64,000 nucleotides of DNA, taken from assembly GCA_028346125.1 (NCBI GenBank), contig JAOMEV010000001.1, positions 62,001-126,000 on the forward strand. The letters are read 5' to 3'. Positions 15,200 through 52,584 of this stretch are shown one piece after another. Numbering within the stretch: position 1 is the first letter of the stretch; each line of letters opens with the position of its first letter. Both the position numbers and the translations under genes were made by a program. The DNA comes from Bacteriovoracales bacterium (GTDB lineage Bacteria; Bdellovibrionota; Bacteriovoracia; Bacteriovoracales; Bacteriovoracaceae). Below the pieces are notes generated by a model. The model ran no database searches and had not been told where the DNA came from. It worked only from the letters and a program-made list of their open reading frames with translations.

Positions 15200-15928
15200 A
15201 TGAAAAAAAACTGTGTCGCTATTATTTTTGCCAGGGGCGGCTCAAAAGGTGTTCCGGGAAAAAATATACGCAAGCTCGGGGACCTTCCTCTAATAGCTTA
15301 TTCAATAAATATAGCAAAAAAATCCAATCTAATAGATCGTGTTATTGTTTCAACTGATGATAGTGATATAGCTCAAATATCAAGAGAGTATGGCGCAGAG
15401 GTTCCTTTCTTGAGACCTAAGGAATTGGCCACAGATGTTTCTCCTGAATGGGACTCTTGGAGGCATGCGCTTAAAAGCTTAAAAAACGACCCCAAGTTTC
15501 CTGAAGTTCATACATTTGTTACTTTACCCCCAACGTCTCCTTTCCGCTCGGTTATTGATGTTGACCAATGTATAGAAACTTTCCAAGAAAATTCTGCAGA
15601 TATTGTTATTACTGGGACTTCGAGCGAAAGAAACCCTTATTTCAATATGGTAAAGCTTGATTCCCATGGTTATGCTGAAGTTGTTATCGATCCTGAAAAA
15701 AAAATTTGTAGAAGGCAAGATGCTCCAACCGTTTATGATATGACAACGGTTGCCTATGTGACATCTCCTGAGTTTATTTTTAAGCACGAGTCGCTCTTTT
15801 CGGGTAAAGTTAAAATGGTATCTATCCCCAAAGAGCGGGCCATCGATATAGATACAAAATTGGATTTTTTCATTGCCGAGCAAATGTTGAAGAATGGAAT
15901 GATTAATCAGGACATGTATCGGGAGTAA
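15200..15928 (+). CDS. CMP-N-acylneuraminate synthetase-like cytidylyltransferase (NeuA/PtmB type)
   Basis: 242 aa from the ATG at 15200. That start is preferred because GGGG lies 7 bases upstream and the protein then begins MKKNCVAIIFARGGSKGVPG like its relatives; an in-frame TTG at 15125 would add an unsupported tail. The CTP-binding loop ARGGSKGVPGKN and the LPPTSPFR motif identify the family, which activates nonulosonic acids or Kdo as CMP-sugars. It is the first gene of the plus-strand operon and is followed after 5 bases by an SDR, the same pair as ptmB/ptmA of Campylobacter flagellin glycosylation. It is a paralogue of the enzyme at 28032-28757. Confidence 0.88.
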   Translation: MKKNCVAIIFARGGSKGVPGKNIRKLGDLPLIAYSINIAKKSNLIDRVIVSTDDSDIAQISREYGAEVPFLRPKELATDVSPEWDSWRHALKSLKNDPKFPEVHTFVTLPPTSPFRSVIDVDQCIETFQENSADIVITGTSSERNPYFNMVKLDSHGYAEVVIDPEKKICRRQDAPTVYDMTTVAYVTSPEFIFKHESLFSGKVKMVSIPKERAIDIDTKLDFFIAEQMLKNGMINQDMYRE

Positions 15929-15933
15929 AGAAC

Positions 15934-16737
15934 TTGAGAAGTATAAAAGAACTAAGTGATTTGACGGGAAGAGTTGCCCTTATAACAGGAGGGGCTGGTC
16001 ATATAGGGAGAACGATTGCTGAGGGTCTTGCGGAGTTAGGGGCGTCAATTGCTATTGTGGACATTAATGCTGATGCAATGAGAGAAGTTACATCTGTGAT
16101 TTCAGAAAAGTATGGCACAAAATGTGAAGGCCTCAAAGTTGATTTGGAGAACGAAGCTGAAATTAAGGAAATCCCTAGAAGGATTGAAGAAAGGTTTGGT
16201 AGTTTAAACATTGTTATAAATAATGCGGCATTTGTAGGGGAAAATAAGCTTGAAGGTTGGGTAACGTCCTTTTCAGAACAAAGCATTGAAACTTGGAGAA
16301 GGGCCGTGGAAGTGAATTTAACAGCGGCCTTTGCACTTACTCAAGCCTGTACAGACCTGTTAAAGAAATCAAAAAGAGGATCGGTGATAAATATAGGCTC
16401 AACTTATGGATTAGTTGGCCCTGATATGAGTATTTATAAAGGGACCGAAATGGGGAATCCTGCTGCTTATGCGGCAAGCAAGGGAGGGCTAATTCAACTT
16501 ACCAGATGGTTGAGTACTGTTTTGGCCCCAGAGGTTCGTGTCAACTCTCTTTCTCCTGGAGGAGTTGAGAGAGGACAGCCTAAAACTTTTCAATCTGAAT
16601 ATGTAAAAAGGACACCGTTGAAAAGAATGGCCAGTGAAGAGGACTATAAAGGAGCCGCGTTATATTTGGCGAGTGACTTATCTTCTTACGTAACAGGACA
16701 TAATTTAGTTGTGGATGGTGGTTGGACAGCTTGGTAG
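15934..16737 (+). CDS. SDR-family oxidoreductase (PtmA-like)
   Basis: 267 aa classical short-chain dehydrogenase. It has the NAD(P) motif TGGAGHIG, INNAA, the catalytic Ser in INIGSTYG and YAASK. It ends VVDGGWTAW. TTG start at 15934 with GGGAGTAAAG upstream. It sits between a CMP-sugar synthetase and an unknown gene, like ptmA next to ptmB in Campylobacter. Likely an oxidation or reduction on the sugar acid or its precursor. The SDR at 33374-34210 has the same C-terminal style (GGRSAW), so the two may be functional cousins. Confidence 0.85.
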   Translation: MRSIKELSDLTGRVALITGGAGHIGRTIAEGLAELGASIAIVDINADAMREVTSVISEKYGTKCEGLKVDLENEAEIKEIPRRIEERFGSLNIVINNAAFVGENKLEGWVTSFSEQSIETWRRAVEVNLTAAFALTQACTDLLKKSKRGSVINIGSTYGLVGPDMSIYKGTEMGNPAAYAASKGGLIQLTRWLSTVLAPEVRVNSLSPGGVERGQPKTFQSEYVKRTPLKRMASEEDYKGAALYLASDLSSYVTGHNLVVDGGWTAW

Positions 16738-16765
16738 GTATTGAAATTTTTGGAGGAGACTTTTT

Positions 16766-17863
16766 GTGAACATTGTTAGCTATGAGAGCCTAGTAAGAGA
16801 TTATAATGAGAGCATTAATAATATTTTGAGAGGTTTTAAGCCAAAATATGAATATCTTGAAATGTGGGTTCCTGATAGTGACCCTTATAAAAGTATTTTA
16901 AATTTGTTTGATGCGGCCCAAATTGCTGGGGAAGAAAAGATTTGTCTGCACGTTGGGAAAGAATCCCTCGAAAGTATCGATTGTAAAAACTTAAAAGCTG
17001 AAGTTGAAAAGCTTGGCGCACTCAAAGTTTCTAAAAATGATGATGGAGAAATTTTTGAATTATTTTATGGAAGTAGCGATTATCAAAATGAATTGAAAAC
17101 TAGGGAAAAGTTAGTTTTAAGTGATTATAATGAGCTTTATCGAGATGGGTTGCTAGGTTTAGCGGATAGTCCGACTTATGAAGGATCTGTTCAAGAAGTG
17201 AATAAAGGGGGAGTTTTAATCAGATCTAACATGGATGGCATGAGTCTTTTTACCGAAGTTGATCCAGAAAAAACTATAATTAGGAATGTTTCTTATGCGG
17301 GAGTAAATAATAACGTCTACCGAGGGCTTTTAGAGGGGTTGTGTCGAATCATAGATGGACTACCTATTCAAGAAGCATCTGACCATGGTGTTATAAAATT
17401 GGAGTATAAGCTTCGAGATTCGTCTAAGACCAGTTCAGTCCCAGGAATTGTAACTCTCTTTAATATGCCTGATGAGTTTCAGAAAGTTAATAGTATGGTA
17501 AGAAGTCTTCTCTCAATTTTTAGGGAAAAAGTGGGTTATAATAAAACAAAAAACTTTTATGATCATGGCCCCTCAAAAGATTGGAGAGCATTAAGCCAAG
17601 ATGAAAGGATAAAAACTCTCATTGATTGCATCAAAAATTTTCGCTCAGGTTTTTGCGATAAGAAATATAAAATAGAATTAACTGACCTTCAAAAAGGGGT
17701 TAAAGTTTATGTCTCAACTTCCGGAGATGTTCTTACGGGAGAAAAGCCAATTTTGTTAAGAGAGTTTGAAGATTACCTTCAAAAGAATGTTGATACAAGG
17801 TTGGAGCTTTATCATGAAGAAATTAAAGATTTAAATAAAAAAAGAATTACGGGTAGATTCTAG
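16766..17863 (+). CDS. Protein of unknown function in the radical SAM operon
   Basis: 365 aa, GTG start behind a strong GGAGGAGA. I do not recognise the family. It is soluble-looking, with no signal peptide or membrane segment and few cysteines. A central block (about residues 175-220: NVSYAGVNNNVYRGLLEGL, then a DHGVIKLEYKLRD segment) looks like an ordered alpha/beta domain vaguely reminiscent of the NifU N-terminal fold, but without its cysteines. It lies 14 bases upstream of the radical SAM gene and is almost certainly co-expressed, so a substrate-handling partner or companion enzyme is possible. No function can be assigned. Confidence 0.75.
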   Translation: MNIVSYESLVRDYNESINNILRGFKPKYEYLEMWVPDSDPYKSILNLFDAAQIAGEEKICLHVGKESLESIDCKNLKAEVEKLGALKVSKNDDGEIFELFYGSSDYQNELKTREKLVLSDYNELYRDGLLGLADSPTYEGSVQEVNKGGVLIRSNMDGMSLFTEVDPEKTIIRNVSYAGVNNNVYRGLLEGLCRIIDGLPIQEASDHGVIKLEYKLRDSSKTSSVPGIVTLFNMPDEFQKVNSMVRSLLSIFREKVGYNKTKNFYDHGPSKDWRALSQDERIKTLIDCIKNFRSGFCDKKYKIELTDLQKGVKVYVSTSGDVLTGEKPILLREFEDYLQKNVDTRLELYHEEIKDLNKKRITGRF

Positions 17864-17877
17864 GAAAGGAAAAAATT

Positions 17878-19023
17878 ATGGACTCCGTAAAAGAAGATGA
17901 TGTTTTAGGTGAGCAAAGAGAAGGACTTCTTCTTGATGGTACTAAAATAGCGTGGCATCGAGAAAGGATAGAGGCTTGGTTAAGGGGAGAAAAAGTGGCC
18001 CCTATTACGGTTGATATGTCCTTAACAAGAGCATGTAATTTTGCTTGCCACTTTTGTTATGCGATGTTGCAGGAAAATGATAGGCAAATAATTAATCAAA
18101 AGGTCATTTACGACTTTTTAGAAGACTGTGCTGATATTGGGGTTAAGGCAATAAGTCTCGTTTCTGACGGTGAAAGTACCATTTCACCTGTTTTTATAAA
18201 CACAGTAGTAAGGGGAAGTGAGCTGGGAATTAACATGGCCGTAGGGACCAATGCTTTCACTCTTACAGAAAGAAAACTTGAGGAAATCCTCCCTCATTTG
18301 ACTTATTTAAGAGTTAATTTTTCAGCAGGAGAGCCAAAGAGATATGCTGAAATAATGGGTGTCAAAGAAGATTGGTTTTTCAGAGTTTGCGAAAATATTA
18401 AGACAATGATGAAAATTAAAAAGAGGGATAACCTTGATGTTACAATTGGTATGCAAATGGTTCTTATGCCTGAATATGAGGACCAAATCATTCCTATTGC
18501 AAAGCTGGGTCAAGAGCTTCAACCAGACTATCTTGTAATAAAGCACTGCTCTGATAACGAGGAAGGTAGTTTAGGGGTCCAATATGGAAAATATAAAGGT
18601 ATGTACGAAAAGTTGAAAGAGGTCGAAACTTATTCTGAAGAAGGTGGCTATCAAGTTGTTGTGAAGTGGTCAAAAATTAAAGCTGAAGGGACGAGGAGTT
18701 ATCAGAGATGTTATGGCGCTCCCCTAATGTTGCAAATGTCAGGATCAGGCCTCGTGGCACCTTGTGGAGGGCTTTTCAACGAAAAATATAAAAAGTTTCA
18801 TATAGGAAATATTGCGACAAAGAGATTTAAAGATATTTTCAATTCTAAAGAGTATTGGGACGTCATGAACTACCTTGCTTCTCCAAAGTTTAATGCACAG
18901 AAAATGTGCGCTTCCCTTTGTCTGCAGCATAAAGTTAATGAATATTTAGATGCCATTGTGAAAGGACAAATTGTTTTAAGAGATCCTGCTGGAGAACCTC
19001 CTCAACATTTAAACTTCATATAA
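17878..19023 (+). CDS. Radical SAM/SPASM-type enzyme
   Basis: 381 aa. The canonical CxxxCxxC iron-sulfur motif is present at C53, C57 and C60 (RACNFACHFCY). The C-terminal third has further cysteines (CYGAP, APCGG, KMCASLC) in a SPASM/twitch-like arrangement, with the HIGNIATKRFKDIFNS phrase typical of that domain. Such enzymes use S-adenosylmethionine to make a 5-deoxyadenosyl radical; in glycan loci they do dehydrogenation, epimerisation or dehydration of sugars, while other SPASM enzymes act on peptides. Neighbours are CMP-sugar synthetase, SDR and GNAT genes, so a sugar substrate is more likely here. The reaction is unknown. Confidence 0.85.
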   Translation: MDSVKEDDVLGEQREGLLLDGTKIAWHRERIEAWLRGEKVAPITVDMSLTRACNFACHFCYAMLQENDRQIINQKVIYDFLEDCADIGVKAISLVSDGESTISPVFINTVVRGSELGINMAVGTNAFTLTERKLEEILPHLTYLRVNFSAGEPKRYAEIMGVKEDWFFRVCENIKTMMKIKKRDNLDVTIGMQMVLMPEYEDQIIPIAKLGQELQPDYLVIKHCSDNEEGSLGVQYGKYKGMYEKLKEVETYSEEGGYQVVVKWSKIKAEGTRSYQRCYGAPLMLQMSGSGLVAPCGGLFNEKYKKFHIGNIATKRFKDIFNSKEYWDVMNYLASPKFNAQKMCASLCLQHKVNEYLDAIVKGQIVLRDPAGEPPQHLNFI

Positions 19024-19034
19024 GAGGATTCTTT

Positions 19035-19544
19035 GTGGGTAATTTAGAAATACGCCAGGCGCTTCTCGTTGACTCAGAAATGATTTCAAAACTTCATTAT
19101 AAATCTTGGATTAGGGCCTATAAAGAAATTTTGCCTGAGCAATATTTTGATCAAATAAGCTTGGAAAAAACGAATGAACATTGGTTCAGAATTCTTGCCG
19201 AGCAAGGCCAGGAATCAGTATTTTTATTGGCCTTTAATGGTGATGAATTTGTCGGCTTTATAAATGGTGGGCCTTCTCGTGATAGGGAATCACAGGGAGC
19301 AGAGCTTTACGGGCTTTTTGTTAAAAATGAAAATAAAGGAATTGGGACATTTTTGTTGAAAAATTTTGTATCGGACTTGCGAAAAATAAATTACGAATCT
19401 TTTCATGCTTGGGTTTTGAACGAATCTAGGGCCTTTGGGTTTTTTACGAAAATGGGGGGAGTTTCAACCAAATTTATACAAGAAGAAACTGGTGTTCCTC
19501 ACGTCACTTTTAAAGAAACAATGCTTTCTTGGAAGCGTATATAA
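19035..19544 (+). CDS. GNAT-family N-acetyltransferase
   Basis: 169 aa. GNAT fold signatures: IRQALLVDSEMISKLH at the N-terminus, AELYGLFVKNENKGIGTFLL as the acetyl-CoA pyrophosphate-binding loop (variant of Q/RxxGxG/A), and the HAWVLNESRAFGFFTKMGG beta-bulge region. GTG start with AGAGGA upstream. Co-directional with the radical SAM gene (11-base gap). It may acetylate or otherwise acylate an amino sugar produced by the operon. It could also be a peptide or protein acetyltransferase; the context favours sugar. Confidence 0.8.
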   Translation: MGNLEIRQALLVDSEMISKLHYKSWIRAYKEILPEQYFDQISLEKTNEHWFRILAEQGQESVFLLAFNGDEFVGFINGGPSRDRESQGAELYGLFVKNENKGIGTFLLKNFVSDLRKINYESFHAWVLNESRAFGFFTKMGGVSTKFIQEETGVPHVTFKETMLSWKRI

Positions 19545-19657
19545 CTTAAGTTAAGTCTTTCTCGTGGTTATAAATGTTTGAGAGATATAGTTGTCTTTTT
19601 AAATAAAATCTGAAAGACTTGGTGTACTAAACCTAATAGTAGTGCGAGAGAATTAAC

Positions 19658-20659
19658 ATGTCTGAACCCCTTTCGAAGAGAAAAAAAGTTCATGTAAAAA
19701 CACTAAATAAAATGAAAAATGGAGGGGAACCCTTAAGCTGGATTACGGCCTACGACTATCCTATGAGCAGTGCAGTGGAAGAGGCAGGGATAGATATGAT
19801 TCTTGTTGGTGATTCTGGTGGAATGGTTCAATTAGGTTATACAACAACAAATCCTGTCACAATGGATGAAATGATCACGATGACTAAGGCCGTGAGGAGA
19901 GGTGCTCCAAACACTTTTATAGTGGGTGACATGCCTCAGGGGTCTTATGAGATTGGTGATAAAGAAGCAGTTCAGAGTGCTTTAAGGTTTGCTAAAGAAA
20001 GCCTTTGTGATGCGGTTAAATTGGAAGGTGGCAGGAGGGTTCGCTCTCAAATAAAGTCCATTGTTGATGCAGGAATTCTGACAATTGGCCATCTAGGGCT
20101 AACTCCACAGAGTGCCTCATCTTTTGGTGGCTATAGTGTACAAGGAAAAACTCAGGAAAGTTTTGAAGAAATTTTTGAAGACGCTTTGGCGGTTCAAGAT
20201 GCAGGAGCATGTGCATTGTTATTGGAGGCCATGCCTTCAGAGCCGGCAGGCCAAATTGCGAGGCAGTTAAAAATACCAGTTTATGGAATTGGTGCAGGTA
20301 ATTGTGTTGATGGGCAACTCATTATTCTCCATGATATGATAGGACTATACCCAGTTTTTAGACCATATTTCGCCAAAAATTATATCCCTACCATAATGGA
20401 TGATTTTTCAAAGTATATTAATTCTTTTGAAGATATAAAGAAGCTTGGTCGAGAATCTCAAAGAGATGGGCTTTTTGTTATGGTTAAGATGGCGGTTGAA
20501 TCTTATATTAAGGATGTAAAGTCTAAAAAGTTTCCTTCGGTGGAATTTTCATATCCTATCAAAGATGAGCACTTGAAAGATTTAAGAAAGTCCAAGTTTT
20601 GGTCGAGCGCTAGGTCACATGAAAGAGGAATCTTGAGCGATCAAAGTTTAACTTGCTGA
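19658..20659 (+). CDS. PanB homologue (ketopantoate hydroxymethyltransferase family)
   Basis: 333 aa TIM-barrel protein. PanB motifs are complete: VGDSGGMVQLGY with metal Asp52, VGDMPQGSY with Asp91, KLEGG with Lys121 and Glu123, LLLEAMP with Glu190, and GIGAGNCVDGQ. These match in spacing the metal and catalytic residues of E. coli PanB. It is about 70 residues longer than usual, with an added C-terminal tail from about residue 285. PanB uses methylene-tetrahydrofolate to hydroxymethylate a branched 2-keto acid for pantothenate synthesis. No panC, panD or panE is nearby; the next gene is an acetolactate-synthase-like enzyme. A role in making a hydroxymethylated keto acid for glycan decoration is inference. 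Confidence 0.85.
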   Translation: MSEPLSKRKKVHVKTLNKMKNGGEPLSWITAYDYPMSSAVEEAGIDMILVGDSGGMVQLGYTTTNPVTMDEMITMTKAVRRGAPNTFIVGDMPQGSYEIGDKEAVQSALRFAKESLCDAVKLEGGRRVRSQIKSIVDAGILTIGHLGLTPQSASSFGGYSVQGKTQESFEEIFEDALAVQDAGACALLLEAMPSEPAGQIARQLKIPVYGIGAGNCVDGQLIILHDMIGLYPVFRPYFAKNYIPTIMDDFSKYINSFEDIKKLGRESQRDGLFVMVKMAVESYIKDVKSKKFPSVEFSYPIKDEHLKDLRKSKFWSSARSHERGILSDQSLTC

Positions 20660-20721
20660 ATATATATAATTCTTTATATTCATCTCATGGATTGGGACTC
20701 AATAGAAAAATTATTTAACTT

Positions 20722-20742
20722 TTATGAACCAGCGGTTCATAA
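20722..20742. promoter_or_regulatory. Perfect 9-bp dyad before the TPP-enzyme gene
   Basis: TTATGAACC (20722-20730) and GGTTCATAA (20734-20742) are perfectly complementary around AGC. The dyad ends 27 bases before the ATG at 20770. It is followed by CGTATTTTTG, a poor T-tract, so either a weak terminator after the PanB-like gene or an operator/leader hairpin fits. Confidence 0.45.
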
Positions 20743-20769
20743 CGTATTTTTGATATTTGGAGAGGAAAG

Positions 20770-22539
20770 ATGAAAGTTTCAGATTATATAGCAGAGTTTT
20801 TTGCAAAAAAAGGCATTGGCCATGCTTTTGTTGTGACCGGAGGGTGCATCGTCCATTGTATAGACTCATTGGCCAAAACAGATGGAATTCAATATATCCC
20901 TGTTCAACACGAGCAAGCTGGAGCAATGGCAGCTGATTCCTACGCAAGGGTCAAAAATAGTGTTGGGTTGGCCATGGCGACGAGTGGGCCGGGGGCGACA
21001 AACTTATTGACTGGAGTATGCTGCTCCTATTATGACTCTATTCCAGTTTTTCTTGTGACCGGACAAGTTCCTGCTGGTCAATTGAAAAGGGACAGTAAAA
21101 GTAGACAGATAGGTTTTCAGGAAACCGATGTTGTAAGTATCTTCGAATCGGTAACAAAGTATAGTGCTCTCATTGATGATGCTAAAAATATTAGATACGA
21201 ATTAGAAAAAGCTTATCATTTGGCCACAGAAGGAAGACCTGGTCCAGTTCTCTTAGATATTTGTGATGATGTTCAAAGGGCCAATATTGATCCTAAGGAA
21301 CTGAAGTCCTTTGTTCCTCCCAAGGAAGAAGGGAAGAGGGACTATATCCTTGATAAAATGGGTGAAGTTTTGGAATTGTTAAAGAATTCTGAGAGACCGA
21401 TTTTAATACCTGGTCAAGGAATAAGACATGGAAACGCAATAGAATCATTTTTAAAACTGGCCGATATGTTACAAGTGCCTATTGCTCCAACTTGGGGGGC
21501 CATGGACTTTCTTTCTTTTGATCACCCTCTTGTTGTAGGAAACTTTGGTGTTACTTCTGGGAGGAGTGGAAATTTTGCAGTCCAAAACTCCGATCTTGTG
21601 TTGGCCATTGGAACAAGGCTAGACACTCATGAAACGGGACCTCGCGTGAATACTTTTGCCAGGGGGGCCAAAAGAGTCATGGTGGACATTGATGAGTCAG
21701 AGCTGGAAAAATTTAAAAAAATGGATTACAAAATCAATGTCCCAATACAGGCAGATGCCAAAGAGTTTATTTCTGTTTTTATAGAAAGCATTAAAGATTT
21801 TCCAAAGAAGGATATCTCTCCGTGGAGAGAGCGAGTAAATAACTGGAAAGAAAAATATACATGTTGCTTGGGTGAATACTATGATCAGAAGGAAAAGGTT
21901 AATCCTTACGTTTTTATGCGTGAACTCTCTAAGCTTTCTCCTGATGAATCCTATATAATTCCTGATTGCGGAGGAAATCTTATTTGGACGATGCAAGGCT
22001 ATGAAATAAAAAGTGGACAGAGATTACTTACATCTTTTAATCATTCTCCAATGGGTTATGCTGTTCCAGGTGCAATGGGTGCCGCATTAGCTACTGACAA
22101 ACCCATTATTTGCATTACTGGTGATGGTGGTTGTCAAATGAATATTCAAGATTTGGCCACTATTGTTTATTATCAGTTGCCTGTTAAAATTTTTCTTATG
22201 AATAATCATGGGCATGGAATCATACGACAGACCCTGAATACGTGGCTAGACAAAAGACATAATGCTATTGGAAAAGATAGTGGGCTTGCTGAGCCAGACC
22301 TGGTAAAGGTGGCAGAGGCCTATGGACTTCGCACGATTTCGATATATGACCATAGCGAAATTAAAGATAAAGTGAATGAAGTTTTTAACTTTGAGGGACC
22401 GATTTTTTGCAATGTGGAAATGAAACCTGACCAGGTTCTTGAGCCCAAACTTGTTTTTGGAAAGCCTATTGAAGATTCTGCACCTTTGCTGAATCGAGAA
22501 GAGTTTAATGCGAATATGATTGTGCCTCCGGTTGATTAA
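20770..22539 (+). CDS. Thiamine-diphosphate enzyme, acetolactate synthase large-subunit-like
   Basis: 589 aa with the three-domain TPP fold: N-terminal catalytic Glu in VQHEQAGAMAADSYAR, TSGPGATNLLTGV, a central Rossmann-like domain, and the ThDP-binding GDGGCQMNIQDLATI ending in NN (about residues 450-477). Length and motifs match acetolactate synthase, yet no regulatory small subunit or other ilv gene is present. Within glycan loci, relatives such as YerE transfer a two-carbon unit from pyruvate to a keto-sugar to make branched sugars. Placed after a PanB homologue, it may instead build a branched keto acid. Both are inference. Confidence 0.85.
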   Translation: MKVSDYIAEFFAKKGIGHAFVVTGGCIVHCIDSLAKTDGIQYIPVQHEQAGAMAADSYARVKNSVGLAMATSGPGATNLLTGVCCSYYDSIPVFLVTGQVPAGQLKRDSKSRQIGFQETDVVSIFESVTKYSALIDDAKNIRYELEKAYHLATEGRPGPVLLDICDDVQRANIDPKELKSFVPPKEEGKRDYILDKMGEVLELLKNSERPILIPGQGIRHGNAIESFLKLADMLQVPIAPTWGAMDFLSFDHPLVVGNFGVTSGRSGNFAVQNSDLVLAIGTRLDTHETGPRVNTFARGAKRVMVDIDESELEKFKKMDYKINVPIQADAKEFISVFIESIKDFPKKDISPWRERVNNWKEKYTCCLGEYYDQKEKVNPYVFMRELSKLSPDESYIIPDCGGNLIWTMQGYEIKSGQRLLTSFNHSPMGYAVPGAMGAALATDKPIICITGDGGCQMNIQDLATIVYYQLPVKIFLMNNHGHGIIRQTLNTWLDKRHNAIGKDSGLAEPDLVKVAEAYGLRTISIYDHSEIKDKVNEVFNFEGPIFCNVEMKPDQVLEPKLVFGKPIEDSAPLLNREEFNANMIVPPVD

Positions 22540-26014: not shown

Positions 26015-27199
26015 ATGAACAATAAATTTTTTAATGATATTTTTAGAAGGTATCCAGTTTTAGAAAATGTTAGAGAACCTATCTATAACTCTTTTATTCA
26101 CATGGTTAAAACATTTGAAGGGGGAGGAAAACTATTGGTTTGCGGTAATGGTGGAAGTGCAGCTGATGCCGATCATATAGTAGGGGAATTATTAAAGGGC
26201 TTTATAAGCAAAAGAAAATTAACTAGGAAGCAATTGGAACCTTTTAAAAATAACTTTCCTGGAGAAGAGTCTTTTTTTTACGATAATCTCCAAGGGGGAA
26301 TTCCGGCGATTTCTTTAACATCAAATGGTTCAATTAACACTGCTATTGCCAACGATACAAATCCTGAGTTTATTTTTGCTCAACAAGTTTATGCTTTGGG
26401 TAAGGAGGGAGATACCTTTTTGGGAATTTCAACATCAGGAAACTCCAAAAATGTTGTCCATGCGGCTAAAGTTGCGAAGGCCCTTAATATGAAGACGATT
26501 GCTTTGACGGGAAAGGGGGGAGGACTTCTTAGGGAGCACTGTGATTATACAATAAATGTTGGAGCAAATTTGGTTCATGAAGTTCAAGAATTGCATCTTC
26601 CTGTATATCACGGCCTTTGTGCTGCTTTGGAAGACTACTTTTTTGAAGAATGTGCTGGAGACTTGGGAAGTATGAAAATATCTTCTGGGCCTTTAGAAAA
26701 ATATGGCAAGCAAAAAAATAAGTTAGGTGATGTAGAGCTTATAGTTTTTGACTTTGATGGAGTCTTTACTAATAACAAAGTCATTGTTAACCAAGAAGGA
26801 GTTGAAAGTGTGGTCTGTGATAGGTCAGATGGGCTTCTTTTAAAAGAGATAACTAAACTTAGAATTCCCATGTTCATTTTATCAACGGAAACAAATAAAG
26901 TTGTTAAAGCGAGGGCATCTAAGCTCAATATTGAATGTAAATCTGGATGCAATGACAAAGAATCTTTCCTGAAATCATTTTGTGCGGAGAAAAATATAGA
27001 CCTTGAAAATGTGGTCTATCTAGGTAATGATGTTAACGATTTGAAGGCCATGGAGTCTGTTGGTTTCAGTATTGCACCACAAGATGCTAATCCAGAAATT
27101 AAAAGCATGGCCTCATTTGTTTTAAAATCAAAAGGTGGGGATGGTGCTATTAGAGAATTTTGTGAATTGATTTTAAAAAATAACAAACACTGGAGTTGA
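26015..27199 (+). CDS. Fusion of GmhA-like SIS sugar isomerase and KdsC-like HAD phosphatase
   Basis: 394 aa. Residues 1-225 form a SIS domain with GmhA hallmarks: LLVCGNGGSAADADHIVGEL, ISTSGNSKNV, and the active-site VQELHLPVYHGLC. Residues 240-394 form a C0-type HAD phosphatase like KdsC: VFDFDGVFTNN with the two catalytic Asp, the ILSTETN motif II and YLGNDVNDLKAM motif IV. KdsC-type enzymes dephosphorylate Kdo-8-P or N-acylneuraminate-9-P. It is translationally linked to the following NeuB gene. The fusion joins the step before and the step after an ulosonic-acid-phosphate synthase, suggesting NeuB here acts on a sugar phosphate. Substrate inferred, not known. Confidence 0.88.
   Translation: MNNKFFNDIFRRYPVLENVREPIYNSFIHMVKTFEGGGKLLVCGNGGSAADADHIVGELLKGFISKRKLTRKQLEPFKNNFPGEESFFYDNLQGGIPAISLTSNGSINTAIANDTNPEFIFAQQVYALGKEGDTFLGISTSGNSKNVVHAAKVAKALNMKTIALTGKGGGLLREHCDYTINVGANLVHEVQELHLPVYHGLCAALEDYFFEECAGDLGSMKISSGPLEKYGKQKNKLGDVELIVFDFDGVFTNNKVIVNQEGVESVVCDRSDGLLLKEITKLRIPMFILSTETNKVVKARASKLNIECKSGCNDKESFLKSFCAEKNIDLENVVYLGNDVNDLKAMESVGFSIAPQDANPEIKSMASFVLKSKGGDGAIREFCELILKNNKHWS
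27192..27195 (+). promoter_or_regulatory. Ribosome binding site fixing the second NeuB start
   Basis: GGAG lies 6 bases before the ATG at 27202 and directly abuts the in-frame TTG at 27196. Spacing therefore favours ATG 27202. The site is inside the end of the SIS-KdsC gene, so the two genes are probably coupled. Confidence 0.55.
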
Positions 27200-27201
27200 A
27201 A

Positions 27202-28029
27202 ATGTCTGTTTTTATTATTGCTGAAATTGGAATTAATCATAATGGGGATGTTGATCAGGCGAAAAAGCTTATTGACGTGGCAAGTGTCTCTGGGGCCAAT
27301 GCTGTAAAATTTCAAAAAAGAACTCTGGATATTGTTTATACTAAGGAAGAGCTTGCGAAGGCGAGGAAGCATCCTTATGGAACAACGAACGGTGATTTAA
27401 AAAAGAGACTTGAATTTGACAAAGATGACTACAAAGAAATAGATAGATATTGCAAAGAGAAAAAAATTCATTGGTTTGCTTCGGCCTGGGATCTTGAAAG
27501 CCAAAAATTCTTAAGAGAGTTTGATTGTAAATATAATAAAGTGGCCTCTGCTATGCTTACTGATTTAGACCTTTTAGAATTAATCGCGGAAGAAAAAAGA
27601 CATACATTTATATCAACGGGGATGTCGACGATAGAGGAAATTGAAAGGGCGGTGGCCGTTTTCGAAAAACATAACTGTCCTTATGAGTTGATGCATTGTA
27701 ATAGCACTTACCCTATGCCTGTTGAAGAGGCGAATTTAAGAACGATGGAAACTTTAAGGAAAAAATTTAATTGTGGTGTCGGCTACAGTGGTCATGAGAC
27801 TGGACTTGCTGTGTCTTATGCAGCTGCGGCTTTAGGTGCAACTTCATTAGAAAGGCATATTACCTTAGATAGAGCGATGTTTGGTTCTGATCAATCAGCT
27901 TCTATTGAGCCTATGGGATTTATGCAACTTTGTGGTGCCGTAAGAAATATTGAAAAGTCTTTGGGGGATGGTGTAAAACGAGTTTATTCTGGTGAAGAAG
28001 CCGCAAAGGCAAAATTAAGAAAGCAATAA
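27202..28029 (+). CDS. Short NeuB-family synthase lacking the SAF domain
   Basis: About 275 aa. NeuB barrel motifs are present: FIIAEIGINHNGDVDQAKKL, AVKFQKR, STGMSTIEE, HCNSTYPMP, GYSGHETG and ERHITLDRAM. The protein stops where the SAF (antifreeze-like) domain should begin, about 65 residues shorter than the NeuB at 695-1720. In dimeric NeuB, the SAF domain caps the partner active site over the N-acetyl group, so its loss implies a different acceptor or a separate cap. Following a SIS-KdsC fusion, it may use a phosphorylated aldose (Kdo- or KDN-like chemistry). A perfect hairpin terminator starts within 10 bases after its stop. Confidence 0.88.
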   Translation: MSVFIIAEIGINHNGDVDQAKKLIDVASVSGANAVKFQKRTLDIVYTKEELAKARKHPYGTTNGDLKKRLEFDKDDYKEIDRYCKEKKIHWFASAWDLESQKFLREFDCKYNKVASAMLTDLDLLELIAEEKRHTFISTGMSTIEEIERAVAVFEKHNCPYELMHCNSTYPMPVEEANLRTMETLRKKFNCGVGYSGHETGLAVSYAAAALGATSLERHITLDRAMFGSDQSASIEPMGFMQLCGAVRNIEKSLGDGVKRVYSGEEAAKAKLRKQ

Positions 28030-28031
28030 TA

Positions 28032-28757
28032 TTAGAAGGAAGGAAGTTCTTGAGGGCTTCCTTCCTTTTTTAAAATATATTTTTCCATTAAAACTTCGCA
28101 GAACCTAAGATCGTCTAAGTTATCAATTTCAAACATTTGCCAGAAATCCATAAGAGTCATTCCGATCCTCCCTCCAAGCCGATTGTTTAGAGTTCTCAAA
28201 ATGGAGGGTTTAAATATATAGAAGGAGCCATTTTCTACAAACTGTGGTGAAAAGTCCTGTCTTCTTTTCCTATTTTTGTGATCGTAGTTGATGCTCTCAA
28301 GCTCTCCCTTATTATTTTTTTCCCAGAGAAACATATCATCTATTTTTGAAGCAGAAAAAAGGGAATCATATCTATTTTTAATAAAGTCTGAAATTCCTTT
28401 AGAGAGGTCATTCTTTCCTCTTAAGGGAGAAGTTACTTGCATTGCTACGACGATATCAACTGGGCCAGTTTGCTTCTCAATCATATCGAGAGCATGCTGC
28501 CAAGCTGATTCAGAGGTAGCTTTATCTCCAGAAATGTCATCAGGTCTTTTTATACAATTAGCACCGAACCGGTTGGCCGTTTCCAAAACTTTGGAAGAGT
28601 CTGAAGAGACCCAGACTGAGCTAATTTCTTTGGTTTGAAGAGCTCTCTCCGTTGTCCAAGATAAAAGAGGTCTACCACAAAAATCAACAATATTTTTATC
28701 AGGAATTCCTTTAGAGCCACCTCTTGCAGGGATAATGGCAACAATATTTTTTTTCAT
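28032..28757 (-). CDS. CMP-sugar synthetase (NeuA family), second copy
   Basis: 241 aa from the ATG at 28757, chosen because AAGAGGA precedes it and the protein begins MKKNIVAIIPARGGSKGIPD; a start at 28784 would overlap the upstream methyltransferase end. Motifs: CTP loop PARGGSKGIPDKN, QVTSPLRG and RRQDFSPQFVENGSFY. It should activate an ulosonic acid as its CMP derivative. It converges with the short NeuB gene, with 2 bases between stops, and its last codons contain the terminator hairpin used by the other strand. It is the likely partner of the 26015-28029 genes though on the opposite strand. Confidence 0.9.
   Translation of the reverse strand: MKKNIVAIIPARGGSKGIPDKNIVDFCGRPLLSWTTERALQTKEISSVWVSSDSSKVLETANRFGANCIKRPDDISGDKATSESAWQHALDMIEKQTGPVDIVVAMQVTSPLRGKNDLSKGISDFIKNRYDSLFSASKIDDMFLWEKNNKGELESINYDHKNRKRRQDFSPQFVENGSFYIFKPSILRTLNNRLGGRIGMTLMDFWQMFEIDNLDDLRFCEVLMEKYILKKEGSPQELPSF
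28036..28071 (+). terminator. Rho-independent terminator for the 15200-28029 operon
   Basis: AAGGAAGGAAG (28036-28046) and CTTCCTTCCTT (28057-28067) form a perfect 11-bp stem with a 10-base loop, followed by a run of T to 28071. It ends the plus-strand operon right after the short NeuB gene. It lies wholly inside the 3' coding end of the minus-strand NeuA gene. On the minus strand no T-run follows the stem. Confidence 0.85.
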
Positions 28758-28765
28758 AAATCCTC

Positions 28766-29632
28766 TTAATACTTGATGCCCCAATCATCAAATTTCGAAA
28801 CAACAGAATCATCTTTGAGGAGTGATTTCGCATATCTATTGTAATTTTTCTTTGAATAATTGAAGAGCTCATCAGCTTTATTTTGGGTCACAAAGGTTTC
28901 TTTTTTGCACTCCACAATAAGAGAGGTCAGGGGGTCTCTGTCAAAGCCAGTGATTTTGAAGTTTATTTCATACTTTCCATCAACAAGTCTGTGGATTAGT
29001 CCATGCTTGTTATAGAGCTCATCGTTGAGGTCTTGCCAAACAGGGGGAAGACTATCTATGTGGAGGGGTTCTTTCATTTCTTTTATCGAAGAACCATTAA
29101 AGGGACTTTTGACAATATTGGTAAACCCTAACTTATCAAAGAGAACCCGCATCATTTCAAAATCATACGAATAAAGGTGGGCGTAACCTCCAATAAATTC
29201 ATTAAGCCCTCTGTCAAAAAGAATGGTGTCTTGGCCTGGAGAAACGATAAAGTTCATAAACATACCGCCAAACCCTAGATCCTGCCTAATATTAACGTCT
29301 TCACTTTTAGCGGCCTTAAAAAAATTTTCATCTTTTTCAACATAGGCCTTGGCAATAACCTCAAGATCTGGAGTAAGCATTCTAAATATTCCGCCCGGCC
29401 TTAAGACTCTATTTATTTCCGAAATAACCATCGGTAGCTTGATATGGGGAATATGTTCAAAGACATGAGAGCAAAAAACAATTTCACACGAGTTATCAGG
29501 GAGGTCCATTTTTGAGGCGTCACCGGCAATTTTGTCTCCGGTCGTTTTTTCAATTTTGTGGTCGAGAACATGCCACCCTTCTTTGTACCAAATAGGACTA
29601 GCACCTAAGCATAATTTTATATTTTGACTCAT
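28766..29632 (-). CDS. Class I SAM-dependent methyltransferase (type 11)
   Basis: 288 aa. The protein starts KLCLGASPIWYKEGWHVLDH, an SAM-binding motif variant, followed by KIAGDASKMDLPDNSCEIVF and FCSHVFEHIPH, then EINRVLRPGGIFRMLTPDLE. This is the predicted SAM-dependent methyltransferase type seen in many glycan loci with the substituted first glycine-rich loop. It precedes the CMP-sugar synthetase on the same strand by 8 bases. It probably methylates a sugar hydroxyl or carboxyl in the polymer; acceptor unknown. Confidence 0.82.
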   Translation of the reverse strand: MSQNIKLCLGASPIWYKEGWHVLDHKIEKTTGDKIAGDASKMDLPDNSCEIVFCSHVFEHIPHIKLPMVISEINRVLRPGGIFRMLTPDLEVIAKAYVEKDENFFKAAKSEDVNIRQDLGFGGMFMNFIVSPGQDTILFDRGLNEFIGGYAHLYSYDFEMMRVLFDKLGFTNIVKSPFNGSSIKEMKEPLHIDSLPPVWQDLNDELYNKHGLIHRLVDGKYEINFKITGFDRDPLTSLIVECKKETFVTQNKADELFNYSKKNYNRYAKSLLKDDSVVSKFDDWGIKY

Positions 29633-29696
29633 TTTTATTCCTTAAGGTCTTTTATGAAATTAATTCGATATAAAATCCTATCCCAATAGAAAAAAC

Positions 29697-30662
29697 TTAG
29701 CAAATGGGGTTAGGAACAAATATTTTCTCTAGAAGAACTCTTAGCTCACCACCATCAGCGCATTTTAGAGGGTCAAGCTTTTCGTCTTTTTCTAAAACCT
29801 TTCCTTGGTATATTTCATGAATACTCAAAACTTTGAAGTAATGCTGTTTGGCCAATTTTGAAATTGATTGAGAATTAAAAAAGTAAGTATGGGGAATATC
29901 GGTTTTATAATTTAGAAAATAAGACTCATTGCAATTTGGGACTTCAATAAAAAGAAGCCCCTCATCATTTAAGATGTCATGAAATTTAGAAAGAACGTTA
30001 TGGATATTTGTAACGTGTTCTAAGGAATGGGAAGCTGTAATCAGGTCATATCCACTGGTTACTTCATTTAAATTTGAAAATATGGAATGAACAACCCCTT
30101 TTTCTTTATGAGCATTGCAGAATTTTTTATCAGGTTCGAGAAGGTTGACTTGGATGTTGGGAAGTCTGGCCATCAAATAAGAAATTTCACCATGTCCTGC
30201 ACCAAACTCCAACGTTTTTTTTATGCGATGTTTTAGATCCGGAACAGTATTTGTTATCATTTTTATTTGGTGGGTCGCTCGACAGTTTTCATCTAAATTT
30301 TTTCCAATAATTTCGTAAGATACAGCTTTATTGTCCCAGAAGAGGCCTTGATAATAGCTTTTGAGATCCTGATCACTAGGCATAGGGTGCAGCCAACTTA
30401 AATGGGTTTCAGGACATTTGACAATTTTTTTTCCTTTAAAGATTTTTTCTGAATTTTGGATCTGTTGAAATACTTTGACCTTATTTTTTATTTTTTGAGG
30501 AAGTGGAAAACCTTTAAGGTGGAGTGAAGACAGAAGCTCTTTAAATTTAATTTTAATTTTTGTTCGTCTGGAAAGGTTCTTAACTGTTATGTAATCCGTC
30601 ATTATTTGCGCTTTTGGTAATAACAATGAATGAGGGCTGGTTTCTGTATCAACAGTTTTCAA
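29697..30662 (-). CDS. Class I SAM-dependent methyltransferase (type 12)
   Basis: 321 aa. After an N-terminal region of about 125 residues, a methyltransferase core shows LEFGAGHGEISYLMARL (motif I), NLLEPDKKF, DLITASHSLEHVTN (motif II/acidic) and FIEVPNCNESYF. The N-terminal part resembles the substrate module of C-methyltransferase-like proteins (KCPETHLSWLHPMPSD) but has no cysteine pairs. I kept the TTG at 30662; an ATG at 30602 would remove 20 poorly structured residues and is an alternative. Likely glycan O-methylation. It starts the minus-strand operon in the divergent region 30663-30803. Confidence 0.78.
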   Translation of the reverse strand: MKTVDTETSPHSLLLPKAQIMTDYITVKNLSRRTKIKIKFKELLSSLHLKGFPLPQKIKNKVKVFQQIQNSEKIFKGKKIVKCPETHLSWLHPMPSDQDLKSYYQGLFWDNKAVSYEIIGKNLDENCRATHQIKMITNTVPDLKHRIKKTLEFGAGHGEISYLMARLPNIQVNLLEPDKKFCNAHKEKGVVHSIFSNLNEVTSGYDLITASHSLEHVTNIHNVLSKFHDILNDEGLLFIEVPNCNESYFLNYKTDIPHTYFFNSQSISKLAKQHYFKVLSIHEIYQGKVLEKDEKLDPLKCADGGELRVLLEKIFVPNPIC

Positions 30663-30803
30663 TGAAGGTCCCCTTTATGAAAAAATTAAAATTATTATGG
30701 CCGATTTTATCACGATAATCAAAAAGTCCTTAGGTTGAATTGCCAACAAGGATGGGCAAATGCTAGGCTTTTGGCTTTGTATACCCTATTTAAAGGAATT
30801 TAG

Positions 30804-31778
30804 ATGGAGCGTTTAATTTACTTTAATGGAAAATTTGTTCCAGAAATCGAGGCCAAGGTCTCAATTTTTGACTCTGCCTTAATGTTCGGAGATATGGTCT
30901 TTGAAATGACAAGATCTTTTAATGGCAAGCAATTTAAACTAAGAGAGCATCTTGAGAGACTTTATAAATCGATTAAGTACGTAAGAATCCCTTTGGAAAT
31001 GACAATCGATGAAATGGAAGAAAAATGTCATGAAACAATTAAGGTTAACCAAAAGGCCTTTATGCCACATGATGAGCATCGACTTATGATTAATGTAAGC
31101 CGAGGCCCCTTGTCTATTTACCATGAGATCTTTCCTCAAGCTGAAAGAGGGCCCAATGTTATTATCGCCGATTTTCCCTTAAAGTGGACTGTTGCTGGGA
31201 TGGGGGAATTATATGATAGAGGCATTAATGCTGTGATTCCAAGCCAAAGGGCCATTCCTGCATCTTTGCTTGACCCTAAAATAAAAAATAGAAGCCGGCT
31301 TCATTATCAAATGGCCAATATTGAAGTCTCTAATTGGAAAGGAGATAATAATTGGGCACTCCTCTTGGACCCTGATGGTTATATTGCTGAAGGAACAGGT
31401 GATAATTTTTTTATCGTTAAAGACGGTATCATTATAACCCCAGAAGGAAGAAATATTTTAAGAGGGGTTAGCCGAGATACTATTTTTGAAATTGCTAAAG
31501 AATTAAAACTCCAGTGTATTGAAAAAAATATTGACCCCTACGATGTTTACAACGCAGACGAAGCTTTTATGACGGGGACACCCTTTTCCATTTTACCTGT
31601 GACCGGTCTTAATGGGGAGGTTATAGGTAGTGGAAAAATGGGGCAAATAACTAAAACTCTTATCAAAAAATGGGGGCAAAATGTCGGAGTTGATTTGATC
31701 GAGCAAATCAAATCATTCAACGAAGAAACCCAAGGGACAAACGCTTCAGCTCCATCCCCCTATTCTTTTAAAAAGTGA
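30804..31778 (+). CDS. Class IV (branched-chain type) PLP aminotransferase
   Basis: 324 aa, fold-type IV. Motifs: FDSALMFGDMVFEMTRSF near the N-terminus, the PLP lysine in DPKIKNRSRLHYQMAN, EGTGDNFFIVKDG and the FMTGTPFSILPV cofactor-phosphate loop. The family includes IlvE and D-amino acid aminotransferases that interconvert branched keto acids or D-amino acids. Its presence in a sugar locus, next to a TIM-barrel isomerase and two SDRs, is unusual. It may transaminate a keto acid destined to be an N-acyl substituent, or a sugar-derived keto acid. Substrate unknown. Confidence 0.88.
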   Translation: MERLIYFNGKFVPEIEAKVSIFDSALMFGDMVFEMTRSFNGKQFKLREHLERLYKSIKYVRIPLEMTIDEMEEKCHETIKVNQKAFMPHDEHRLMINVSRGPLSIYHEIFPQAERGPNVIIADFPLKWTVAGMGELYDRGINAVIPSQRAIPASLLDPKIKNRSRLHYQMANIEVSNWKGDNNWALLLDPDGYIAEGTGDNFFIVKDGIIITPEGRNILRGVSRDTIFEIAKELKLQCIEKNIDPYDVYNADEAFMTGTPFSILPVTGLNGEVIGSGKMGQITKTLIKKWGQNVGVDLIEQIKSFNEETQGTNASAPSPYSFKK

Positions 31779-31785
31779 GTTCTAA

Positions 31786-32616
31786 ATGAATAGATTAGGT
31801 TTTATGCAGGGAAGGTTGTCTCCTGTCATCAATGGTAAAATTCAGTGTTTTCCATGGTCAAATTGGAAAGATGAGTTTCCAATTGCTTCAGAGGGTGGTT
31901 TTTACCTTATGGAGTGGACTCTTGATCAGGAAAACCTTTATGAAAACCCATTGATGACTGAAAAAGGTCGTACGCTAATTAAAGGCCTAAAAGAAAAATA
32001 TAATATCAAAATTGAGTCATTAACAGGTGATTGCTTTATGCAATCACCCTTCTATAAAAGTGAAGGGCCCCAAAGAGAAGAACTTTTAAAAGATTTGATA
32101 AATATTTTAAAAAGTTGTGCTTTGGTTAATATTAGGTATGTGGTCATACCGCTTGTTGATAATGGAAGGCCTGAAAATAAAAAGCAAGAAGCTCTTCTGT
32201 TTGAAGCGTTACTGAAATTAAATGAGTTTCTAGATGCAAATGAGATGAGTATTGTTTTTGAGTCAGAACTTCCTCCTCAAGAACTTAAAAACTTTATTAG
32301 AAAGTTTCCTAAGAAAACTTTTGGTATTAATTATGATAGTGGTAATAGTTCTTCCTTGGGCTTTGATCCTGCGGAGGAGTTTGATGCCTATGGAGAAAGA
32401 ATATTAAATATTCATATCAAAGATAGAATTCTTGGTGGGACAACAGTCCCTCTCGGGACAGGGAATACAGACTTTAAAATAGTTTTCAAAAAAATTTCAG
32501 AAATAGATTATAAGGGGAATCTTATTCTTCAAACTGCCAGGGCCGATGACGAAAACCACATAGGTGCTTTAAAAAAATATAAAAAGTTTGTTCACAATAT
32601 TATGGACCGTTTATGA
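31786..32616 (+). CDS. Sugar phosphate isomerase/epimerase-like TIM-barrel protein
   Basis: 276 aa, xylose-isomerase-like (AP endonuclease 2 superfamily). It opens LGFMQGRLSPVINGKIQCFP, a phrase common in homologues from glycan loci. Metal-site segments are visible: VFESELPP, GINYDSGNS, NIHIKDR. The final acidic ligand position reads LILQTAR with Gln where many relatives have Glu. Seven bases after the class IV aminotransferase stop and overlapping the next SDR by 4 bases, so one operon. Likely isomerises or epimerises a small sugar or keto acid; unknown substrate. Confidence 0.8.
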   Translation: MNRLGFMQGRLSPVINGKIQCFPWSNWKDEFPIASEGGFYLMEWTLDQENLYENPLMTEKGRTLIKGLKEKYNIKIESLTGDCFMQSPFYKSEGPQREELLKDLINILKSCALVNIRYVVIPLVDNGRPENKKQEALLFEALLKLNEFLDANEMSIVFESELPPQELKNFIRKFPKKTFGINYDSGNSSSLGFDPAEEFDAYGERILNIHIKDRILGGTTVPLGTGNTDFKIVFKKISEIDYKGNLILQTARADDENHIGALKKYKKFVHNIMDRL

Positions 32617-33365
32617 ATTTGAATTTAGAGGGAAAAACATTTTTCGTATCAGGATCTACACAGGGGATAGGCCTAGGAATTGCGAAAGGACTTCTGGAGG
32701 AAGGGGCCAATGTAATTCTCAATGGTCGAGATCAAGAAAAGTATGAAAGTATAAAAATAAATTTAATAGGAAATCACGAGTTTATCTCTGGAGATGTTTC
32801 TGAGCAGGAAGGTTCCATACGAGTTTTTTCTTTTTTGGAAGAAAAAGAGTCTTTAGATGGACTCGTCTGTAATGTTGGAAGCGGATCTTCTGTGCCACCG
32901 GGCCAAGAGACTCAGAGTGAATGGGAAAGAGTGCTTAAAACAAATTTTTTTAGTGCCACTAACCTTATTGAGAAATGTCTTCCTCTTTTGAAAAAATCTG
33001 GAGGAAATATCATTTGCATTTCTTCTATTTGTGGTCAAGCTGCCTTGGGCGCCCCTTTAACTTATTCGGCTTCAAAAGCTGCGCTCAACTCTTATATTAA
33101 AGGTCTTGCAAGAGTCGTTGGAAAAGATGGGATTCGGGTTAATGCTATTGCTCCTGGAAATATTATTTTCCCGGGGTCTGTTTGGGAAAGAAAAACAAGA
33201 GAAGATAATGTGTCCGTCCAGAAAATGTTAGAGAAAGAAGTCGCCTTAAAAAGACTGGGCGGGCCAGAAGAAATTGCTCATCTTGCTTGCTTTCTCTCTT
33301 CAGCTAAGGCCTCATTTATTACGGGGTCTTTAGTGGTTGCTGATGGTGGACAACTTAGAAGCTAG
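32613..33365 (+). CDS. SDR-family oxidoreductase
   Basis: 250 aa classical SDR. NAD(P)-binding VSGSTQGIGLGIAKGL, catalytic Ser in ICISSICG and Tyr-Lys in TYSASKAALN, C-terminal ITGSLVVADGGQL. The start overlaps the TIM-barrel gene stop (ATGA). With the following SDR it forms a tandem pair in the aminotransferase operon. Probably reduces or oxidises a keto intermediate of a sugar or acyl-group pathway. It resembles FabG-type proteins, but the setting argues against fatty acid synthesis. Confidence 0.85.
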   Translation: MNLNLEGKTFFVSGSTQGIGLGIAKGLLEEGANVILNGRDQEKYESIKINLIGNHEFISGDVSEQEGSIRVFSFLEEKESLDGLVCNVGSGSSVPPGQETQSEWERVLKTNFFSATNLIEKCLPLLKKSGGNIICISSICGQAALGAPLTYSASKAALNSYIKGLARVVGKDGIRVNAIAPGNIIFPGSVWERKTREDNVSVQKMLEKEVALKRLGGPEEIAHLACFLSSAKASFITGSLVVADGGQLRS

Positions 33366-33373
33366 GGGAAATA

Positions 33374-49263: not shown

Positions 49264-49341
49264 AAGAGTTTAACCTTTTAAAGACCTCTATAATAATCTT
49301 TGATGAAGTAGGGTTTGTAAAATAATGAGAAAACAGACTAT

Positions 49342-51460: not shown

Positions 51461-51474
51461 ATGTTGCTCCTTTT

Positions 51475-52569: not shown

Positions 52570-52584
52570 AACAAAAACCTTTTT

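Follow-up and report, generated by a model that had tools for sequence, protein, structure and literature searches.

A 64,000-nucleotide stretch of the genome of a Bacteriovoracales bacterium (contig JAOMEV010000001.1; this whole stretch is hereafter the window, and coordinates are positions in it rather than in the feature alone) carries a run of seven plus-strand genes at 15200-22539. We found that these genes do not represent a single conserved pathway; rather, the run is made of two overlapping pieces, one comprising a radical S-adenosylmethionine (rSAM) enzyme and a 365-amino-acid (aa) protein termed C1, and the other comprising a PanB-family enzyme and a thiamine pyrophosphate (TPP)-dependent enzyme. 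Both the pairing of rSAM with C1 and the placement of an aldolase gene beside TPP genes of this type are beyond chance. We give an even chance to the reading that the locus makes a C-branched, aminated nucleotide sugar for a cell-surface polysaccharide, with PanB supplying the branch donor.

As an earlier note on this DNA had described, all seven open reading frames (ORFs) were found on the plus strand in the order below, and their family assignments were borne out by Pfam and NCBIfam searches:

15200-15928, +, cytidine monophosphate (CMP)-ulosonate cytidylyltransferase-type protein (CTP_transf_3 Pfam, 4.7e-23)
15934-16737, +, short-chain dehydrogenase (SDR; adh_short_C2, 4e-50)
16766-17863, +, C1, a 365-aa protein of no recognised family; the rSAM partner, with an IscU/SufU/NifU_N-like middle domain
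17878-19023, +, rSAM enzyme with a SPASM/Twitch-like C-terminus (Radical_SAM, 1.3e-13; SPASM, 2.4e-5)
19035-19544, +, GNAT acetyltransferase (Acetyltransf_1, 1.3e-7)
19658-20659, +, PanB-family enzyme, second type (TIGR00222, 270 bits versus a cut-off of 207.6)
20770-22539, +, predicted YerE-like TPP-dependent C-branching carboligase (annotated type: acetolactate synthase; PF02776, PF00205, PF02775)

For the CMP-synthetase gene, the start was taken as 15200, a TTG at 15125 marking merely the longest ORF; its product scored 157.4 bits against PseF (PseF/PtmB, CMP-pseudaminate synthetase), below the cut-off of 205.7. The mostly short gaps reported earlier were confirmed for the first five genes, CMP-synthetase to GNAT, which are spaced by 5-28 bp, but not further downstream, where gaps of ~110 bp precede the PanB gene and, again, the TPP gene. 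Because of these gaps and of a weak terminator-like hairpin at 20722-20742, between the PanB and TPP genes, a single transcript over all seven genes is uncertain. The full seven-gene set had no second occurrence in any of the genomes or loci examined.

The rSAM enzyme and C1 form a conserved pair

Loci carrying relatives of the window rSAM gene were gathered by scanning species genomes with a two-sequence rSAM alignment. This approach yielded 45 loci, many of them from metagenome-assembled genomes (MAGs) or single cells, with rSAM proteins 61-77% identical to that of the window; their labels included Alphaproteobacteria (Azospirillum, Nisaea, SAR116, Pelagibacter), Oligoflexia, Myxococcales, Nitrospinaceae, Nitrospiraceae, Acidobacteria, Elusimicrobia and others. 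Partners were counted among genes within 10 kb by gene clustering together with a C1 profile, many of the contigs being truncated. C1 was present in 41-42 of the 45 loci, and lay immediately upstream of the rSAM gene in 37/44 (36 identified by a strict script, plus L016, in which the rSAM ORF is over-extended). Moreover, tblastn of plasmids returned one C1 relative, in Azospirillum oryzae (28% identity over 98%), where the next gene downstream encodes an rSAM protein 73% identical to that of the window. A single-sequence scan of genome contigs and of phages found no C1 relatives. C1 is an obligate-looking, apparently dedicated partner of the rSAM enzyme. The earlier note had proposed that the rSAM, the 365-aa protein and the PanB-like gene be sought together in other polysaccharide loci; the first two do co-occur, but the PanB-like gene was found in none of the 45 loci, and this, together with only one close paralogue in 369 genomes, ruled out PanB as a conserved rSAM partner.

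The rSAM protein carries a CX3CX2C motif, and four further cysteines (278, 296, 344 and 348) were invariant in 29/29 sequences. Among its nearest solved relatives were DesII (4e-6) and cytosylglucuronate decarboxylase, both of which are sugar-nucleotide enzymes. Nonetheless, the protein scored only 47 bits against the DesII family, far under the 450-bit cut-off, and, given that DesII carries a single cluster (PMC11434129), the four extra invariant cysteines ruled out a DesII-type identity. A distant second rSAM gene (24-28% identical) was also observed at or near an HldE-like gene in L087 (7458-8561), L089 (5874-7031), L090 (6805-7992) and L091 (4214-5173), and tandem rSAM pairs occur in other genomes of the taxonomic family (L066-L069).

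C1 gave no Pfam or NCBIfam match, even at E = 10. An AlphaFold2 model of C1, built from 20 homologues, had a pLDDT of 85, and when it was compared with the PDB by Foldseek, nearly all of the best 48 matches were IscU, SufU or NifU_N. The lowest E value was 2e-4, with a probability of 1.00, target TM scores reached 0.73, and the similarity was limited to the middle domain. A C1 profile search was headed by weak NifU (E = 0.11) and IscU (E = 1.2) matches, and the split C1 of L014 matched NifU_N at E = 0.097. The protein comprises an N-terminal domain of ~100 aa, a predicted IscU-like core spanning about residues 115-250, and a C-terminal domain without a recognised fold. Roughly one locus in three carries C1 as two ORFs (~100 plus 216-284 aa) or shows its C-terminal part only (split-C1 loci include L014, L017, L021, L028, L030, L043, L044, L046, L049 and others), and the splitting into two ORFs indicates that the N-terminal domain is a separate unit. 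C1 is thus like IscU, SufU and the NifU N-terminal domain in the predicted fold of its middle part, but differs from them in its added N- and C-terminal domains and in being tied to one rSAM enzyme and not linked to a cysteine desulfurase. It also lacks the three conserved cluster-ligand cysteines of IscU/NifU scaffolds: the best column, C193, is cysteine in 16/21 sequences and every other column in at most 5. Because no cysteine is kept throughout, we call C1 IscU-like in fold, and not an Fe-S scaffold. By-eye suggestions of a TusA-like N-terminal domain and an Nfu-like C-terminal domain were discarded when profile searches of the PDB gave nothing significant, and Foldseek with a good model of the N-terminal domain found no significant structural match. 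A long rSAM-fused ORF in G059/G060, considered as a C1 fusion, in fact contains a GT2-type glycosyltransferase domain; in two genomes of the same taxonomic family (L089, 2-1852; L090, 11450-13381), a GT2-type domain followed by rSAM forms one fused ORF, and no C1 gene was found in the region.

A sugar-nucleotide module accompanies the rSAM gene

The 45 rSAM loci share a further set of genes: an HldE-like kinase/nucleotidyltransferase (30/45), pyruvate dehydrogenase (PDH)-type E1 alpha and E1 beta (29/45 each; family assigned on L045), two SDRs (SDR_B, 25/45; SDR_A, 21/45), DegT aminotransferases (24/45, often two) and a GmhA-like isomerase (22/45). Complete modules were found in L007, L024, L038, L045 and L050. 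When the window proteins were compared with these loci by blast, the remaining module members were located at 50468-57191, 31-38 kb downstream of the rSAM gene (NDP, nucleoside diphosphate):

50468-51460, -, SDR_A, GalE-like NDP-sugar SDR (63% to the L007 copy; SSSCYG...YxxxK, no dehydratase DE motif)
51475-52569, -, DegT aminotransferase 1 (DegT, 1e-107; ~50%, up to 52%, to rSAM-locus copies)
52585-53700, -, DegT aminotransferase 2 (DegT, 1.8e-102; 50-56% to copies beside rSAM)
53712-55304, -, HldE-like bifunctional protein (rfaE_dom_I, 2e-62; rfaE_dom_II, 6e-20; 39% to rSAM-locus copies)
55304-56365, -, SDR_B, NDP-sugar SDR (52-60% to rSAM-locus copies)
56559-57191, +, GmhA-like sugar-phosphate isomerase (SIS; gmhA, 6.1e-36; 44% to rSAM-locus copies)
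57194-58545, -, NTP_transferase (HddC-like) and HAD phosphatase (GmhB-like position), also beside rSAM in G061, G059 and G060

The HldE-like fusion at 53712-55304 has a reversed domain order, with the nucleotidyltransferase preceding the PfkB kinase. The module recalls the desosamine enzymes DesI/DesII/DesV in that one sugar pathway would combine an rSAM enzyme with two DegT aminotransferases, but differs in having no 4,6-dehydratase and in the four additional invariant cysteines of its rSAM. A strict desosamine-type pathway was therefore dropped, since neither SDR has a dehydratase motif and the rSAM cysteines are unlike those of DesII.

E1 alpha and E1 beta were not found in the window module, nor was a close form found in the genome (best long match 26%). 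Some TPP class nevertheless regularly neighbours this rSAM, as judged from E1 alpha/beta in the loci and acetolactate synthase-like TPP genes in two other genomes, where the TPP gene adjoins rSAM or sits one gene off. In G061, from the same taxonomic family, one contig encodes a GmhB-like phosphatase, an HddC-like transferase, GmhA, rSAM (57%) and an SDR, and further an acetolactate synthase-like TPP enzyme, a class I/II aminotransferase, a second rSAM and an HldE-like gene; in L020, a single cell labelled Pelagibacter, DegT, C1, rSAM and an acetolactate synthase-like TPP gene are consecutive.

To our knowledge, no function has been assigned to this rSAM family, and no relevant earlier description of the module was found in the literature. 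The rSAM gene is missing from both same-genus genomes and is strong in only three other genomes of the taxonomic family; the module is therefore accessory. Two MAG contigs that contain it, L036 (labelled Helicobacter cetorum) and L040 (Flavobacteriales), bear labels that look doubtful.

The TPP enzyme is closest to YerE-like enzymes

The window TPP protein is intact in its N, middle and C domains, its catalytic Glu (in QHEQAG) and its GDGG motif. Against the acetolactate synthase equivalog acolac_lg it scored 412.7 bits, below the cut-off of 538.35. Its best solved relative was 8rph (332.8 bits), which is JanthE, a YerE-like enzyme (PMC12188165); the next scored 304.9 bits and Escherichia coli acetohydroxyacid synthase I 261.5 bits, such that acetolactate synthases reached at most 305 bits versus 333 for JanthE. 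JanthE was also the best solved relative of the L020 copy, by a wider margin (414 versus 273 bits), and the TPP proteins of L020 and G061 grouped together in a tree (88/82). Judged by sequence, the window enzyme is closer to JanthE than to acetolactate synthases, and we predict that it is a C-branching enzyme. Enzymes of the YerE type transfer the acyl unit of a 2-oxo acid onto a ketosugar (PMC12247030).

Genes of this type (E <= 1e-90) were present in 32/369 genomes of the phylum. Several contexts included RfbH and glucose-1-phosphate cytidylyltransferase (RfbH at 626 bits in L131; cytidylyltransferases in L145/L147), placing TPP relatives in RfbF/RfbH cytidine diphosphate (CDP)-dideoxysugar clusters, as in yersiniose synthesis. 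The window TPP enzyme is like YerE, ErwE and JanthE, which branch CDP-3,6-dideoxy-4-ketosugars (yersiniose, erwiniose), in sequence, domain set and polysaccharide setting; unlike them, it lies beside PanB and rSAM and has no RfbF/G/H set of its own in the module. Since no RfbH-type gene was recognised in the window module, the CDP-3,6-dideoxy-ketosugar setting is not reproduced there. This is a property of the setting and not of the enzyme, and it weakens only the case for a yersiniose-type pathway; the acceptor is probably other than a CDP-dideoxyhexose.

Two routes to two-carbon-branched sugars are known, through PDH-like AviB1/AviB2 and through YerE (PMC4425429), and the TPP genes found near this rSAM belong to the same two classes. 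The E1 alpha/beta pair of 29/45 loci matches AviB1/AviB2 and Pau11/Pau12, the PDH-like proteins for two-carbon branches in avilamycin and paulomycin; unlike those systems, the pair is absent from the window and, in relatives, is coupled to rSAM and HldE/GmhA genes. A strict alternation of the two classes at rSAM was weakened by G248 and G062.

PanB lies where relatives of the TPP gene often have an aldolase

Among 60 genes adjoining 32 YerE-like TPP genes, 8 encoded HpcH/HpaI aldolases and 5 encoded NeuB-type enzymes, whereas the 227 genes at distance 2-6 included only 5 HpcH/HpaI or NeuB genes. This enrichment (13/60 versus 5/227) gave a Fisher P = 1.7e-6, which overstates independence because the TPP loci are related. 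In the TPP tree, however, a clade with NeuB neighbours (4/4 with NeuB within two places) and a clade with HpaI neighbours (3/3) were separate and strongly supported, which argues for at least two origins of the arrangement. We also observed NeuB with a C-terminal cupin fusion by or near YerE-like TPP genes in L096 (7774-9330), L093 (10979-12529), L133 (7831-9396) and L152 (4537-6048), the cupin having been checked with Pfam for L096 and L093.

ErwE prefers 4-hydroxy-2-oxo acids to pyruvate (PMC12247030), and HpcH/HpaI and PanB are both class II aldolases acting on 2-oxo acids, PanB with formaldehyde (PMC7610986). The window panB gene immediately precedes the TPP gene, and its product retains the conserved PanB motifs (GDS, GDMP, KLEG, GHLGLTPQS, LLEAMP); we accordingly read it as a donor-making enzyme. 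By analogy, PanB may take the aldolase slot here and supply the branch donor, the expected type of its product, a 4-hydroxy-2-oxo acid, being the donor type used by ErwE. The earlier suggestion of a branched chain derived from a hydroxymethylated keto acid is therefore, in view of the JanthE likeness, the aldolase pattern and the ErwE donors, the reading that now best fits PanB and the TPP enzyme.

The window panB could instead be the housekeeping copy, and a genome with no other panB or ilvB had been named as evidence for this. The outcome was ambiguous: the window gene is the only panB found, and no acetolactate synthase was found over cut-off, but the assembly is 68% complete and no panC was found in it either. 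In 6/6 relatives, panB and panC are linked, ~2-5 kb apart, and that panB is only 38-43% identical to window PanB, which, unlike those of all relatives checked, has no panC linkage. Moreover, G108 has both types, one near panC and another 57% identical to window PanB, and is the only genome among the 369 with a close paralogue. We consider a housekeeping role very improbable for both PanB and the TPP enzyme, and an assembly gap best explains the absence of a housekeeping panB-panC pair.

A proposed pathway and competing explanations

In the pathway that we propose, the GmhA-like isomerase and the HldE-like kinase/nucleotidyltransferase would activate a heptose-type sugar, which the two module SDRs and the two DegT aminotransferases would then reshape. 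The rSAM enzyme, with the IscU-like C1, would carry out one radical step on the sugar, most likely an oxidation or a deamination through which a keto group is formed or shifted. PanB would convert a 2-oxo acid and methylene-tetrahydrofolate to a 4-hydroxy-2-oxo acid, and the YerE-like enzyme would decarboxylate this product and attach its hydroxyacyl unit as a branch on the keto-sugar. The heptose scaffold, the individual reactions, their order and the use of PanB in the role of an aldolase are all putative. The more specific formulation, that a widespread and undescribed class of sugar-modifying rSAM enzymes with an IscU-derived, ligand-less partner forms the core of a C-branched amino-heptose pathway, in this branch of which PanB was recruited from vitamin synthesis as donor synthase for a YerE-like branching enzyme, is tentative, and we hold it to be possible rather than likely.

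Several observations weigh against the proposed pathway. Three of 44 rSAM loci are without C1, and no C1 was found in G059-G061. The two module halves lie 31-38 kb apart in the window, and neither SDR, having no 4,6-dehydratase motif, is recognisable as the source of the keto acceptor. The family matches behind the heptose scaffold fall below equivalog cut-offs. PanB beside a YerE-like TPP gene was found only in the window, with no other PanB-TPP pair, and the sole close paralogue of this PanB, in G108, has an IclR/DctP context; between the PanB and TPP genes themselves lie 110 bp and the hairpin described above. Finally, E1 alpha/beta and a YerE-like gene are found together in G248 and G062, and the two TPP classes are thus not strictly exclusive.

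The earlier note had viewed the seven genes as a single operon for CMP-ulosonate tailoring; in this view, NeuA would activate a sugar acid that the six other products modify. The single strand, the short gaps among the first five genes, the many nonulosonate genes in the window, and the Herbaspirillum rSAM locus L028, which holds both NeuA-like and SDR-like genes, are compatible with such an operon. However, homologues of the CMP-synthetase were found in 1 of the 45 rSAM loci (L028), of the SDR in 2, and of GNAT and PanB in none, and the genes conserved alongside the rSAM pair are instead of the HldE/GmhA type. None of CMP-synthetase, SDR and GNAT is conserved alongside it; these three may serve the nonulosonate genes abundant in the window. 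The single-operon frame was not supported, and we regard it as unlikely. We have similar doubts about a route in which PanB and the TPP enzyme yield a free acid, branched or hydroxymethylated, or an aldehyde, and this product is acyl-linked to an amino sugar, for example by GNAT, with no carbon-carbon branch formed on the ring. GNAT does adjoin PanB, and PanB produces hydroxymethyl 2-oxo acids; against this, the nearest solved relative of the TPP enzyme is a YerE-like enzyme that branches ketones, genes related to the window TPP gene lie in dideoxy-ketosugar clusters, and GNAT is unconserved.

It is less probable again that the rSAM is a SPASM-type peptide or protein maturase with C1 as its substrate or carrier and no role in sugar metabolism. 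A tungsten-cofactor maturase and SkfB were among the best rSAM family scores, and C1 has the fold of a scaffold protein; nevertheless, the association with NDP-sugar genes is constant in at least 30 loci, no precursor peptide family was seen, and the next best solved relatives include DesII and cytosylglucuronate decarboxylase. Most improbable is that PanB and the TPP enzyme are ordinary enzymes of pantothenate and branched-chain amino acid synthesis placed in a sugar locus by chance, given that, although PanB is over its family cut-off and neither enzyme has a recognised second copy in this incomplete assembly, the panC-linked panB of relatives is of another type (~40% identical), the TPP enzyme falls under the acetolactate synthase cut-off and nearer to JanthE, and most members of the taxonomic family are without any TPP enzyme of this kind.

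Other genes of the window

A nonulosonate-type block at 26015-34210 contains an SIS+HAD fusion, a 277-aa NeuB without a SAF domain, a second CMP-synthetase (minus strand), a class IV aminotransferase, a xylose-isomerase-like TIM barrel and two SDRs; 49-52% homologues of its NeuB, TIM barrel and SDR occur together in L029, a Caulobacterales MAG. On the minus strand at 47264-50454, a NeuC-type epimerase (366 bits versus an NCBIfam cut-off of 236), a protein with CBS and nucleotidyltransferase domains, and a GFO/IDH oxidoreductase form a set that resembles legionaminate (ptm) genes. A 696-aa ORF at 58770-60860 has a phosphoribulokinase/uridine-kinase domain (396-573), and its N-terminal half resembles GT87 weakly (E = 0.016).

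Implications

The rSAM family described here, 61-77% identical over alphaproteobacterial, myxobacterial, nitrospinal, acidobacterial and other genomes, extends to SAR116 and to Pelagibacter single cells. Its partner C1, a family without a Pfam entry and with an Fe-S-scaffold-like core, raises the question of how radical enzymes are served or steered. Moreover, the occurrence of a YerE-like enzyme next to a 2-oxo-acid aldolase offers a simple rule for predicting the branch on bacterial surface sugars; if our reading is true, the rule would take in PanB as a new donor-making enzyme.

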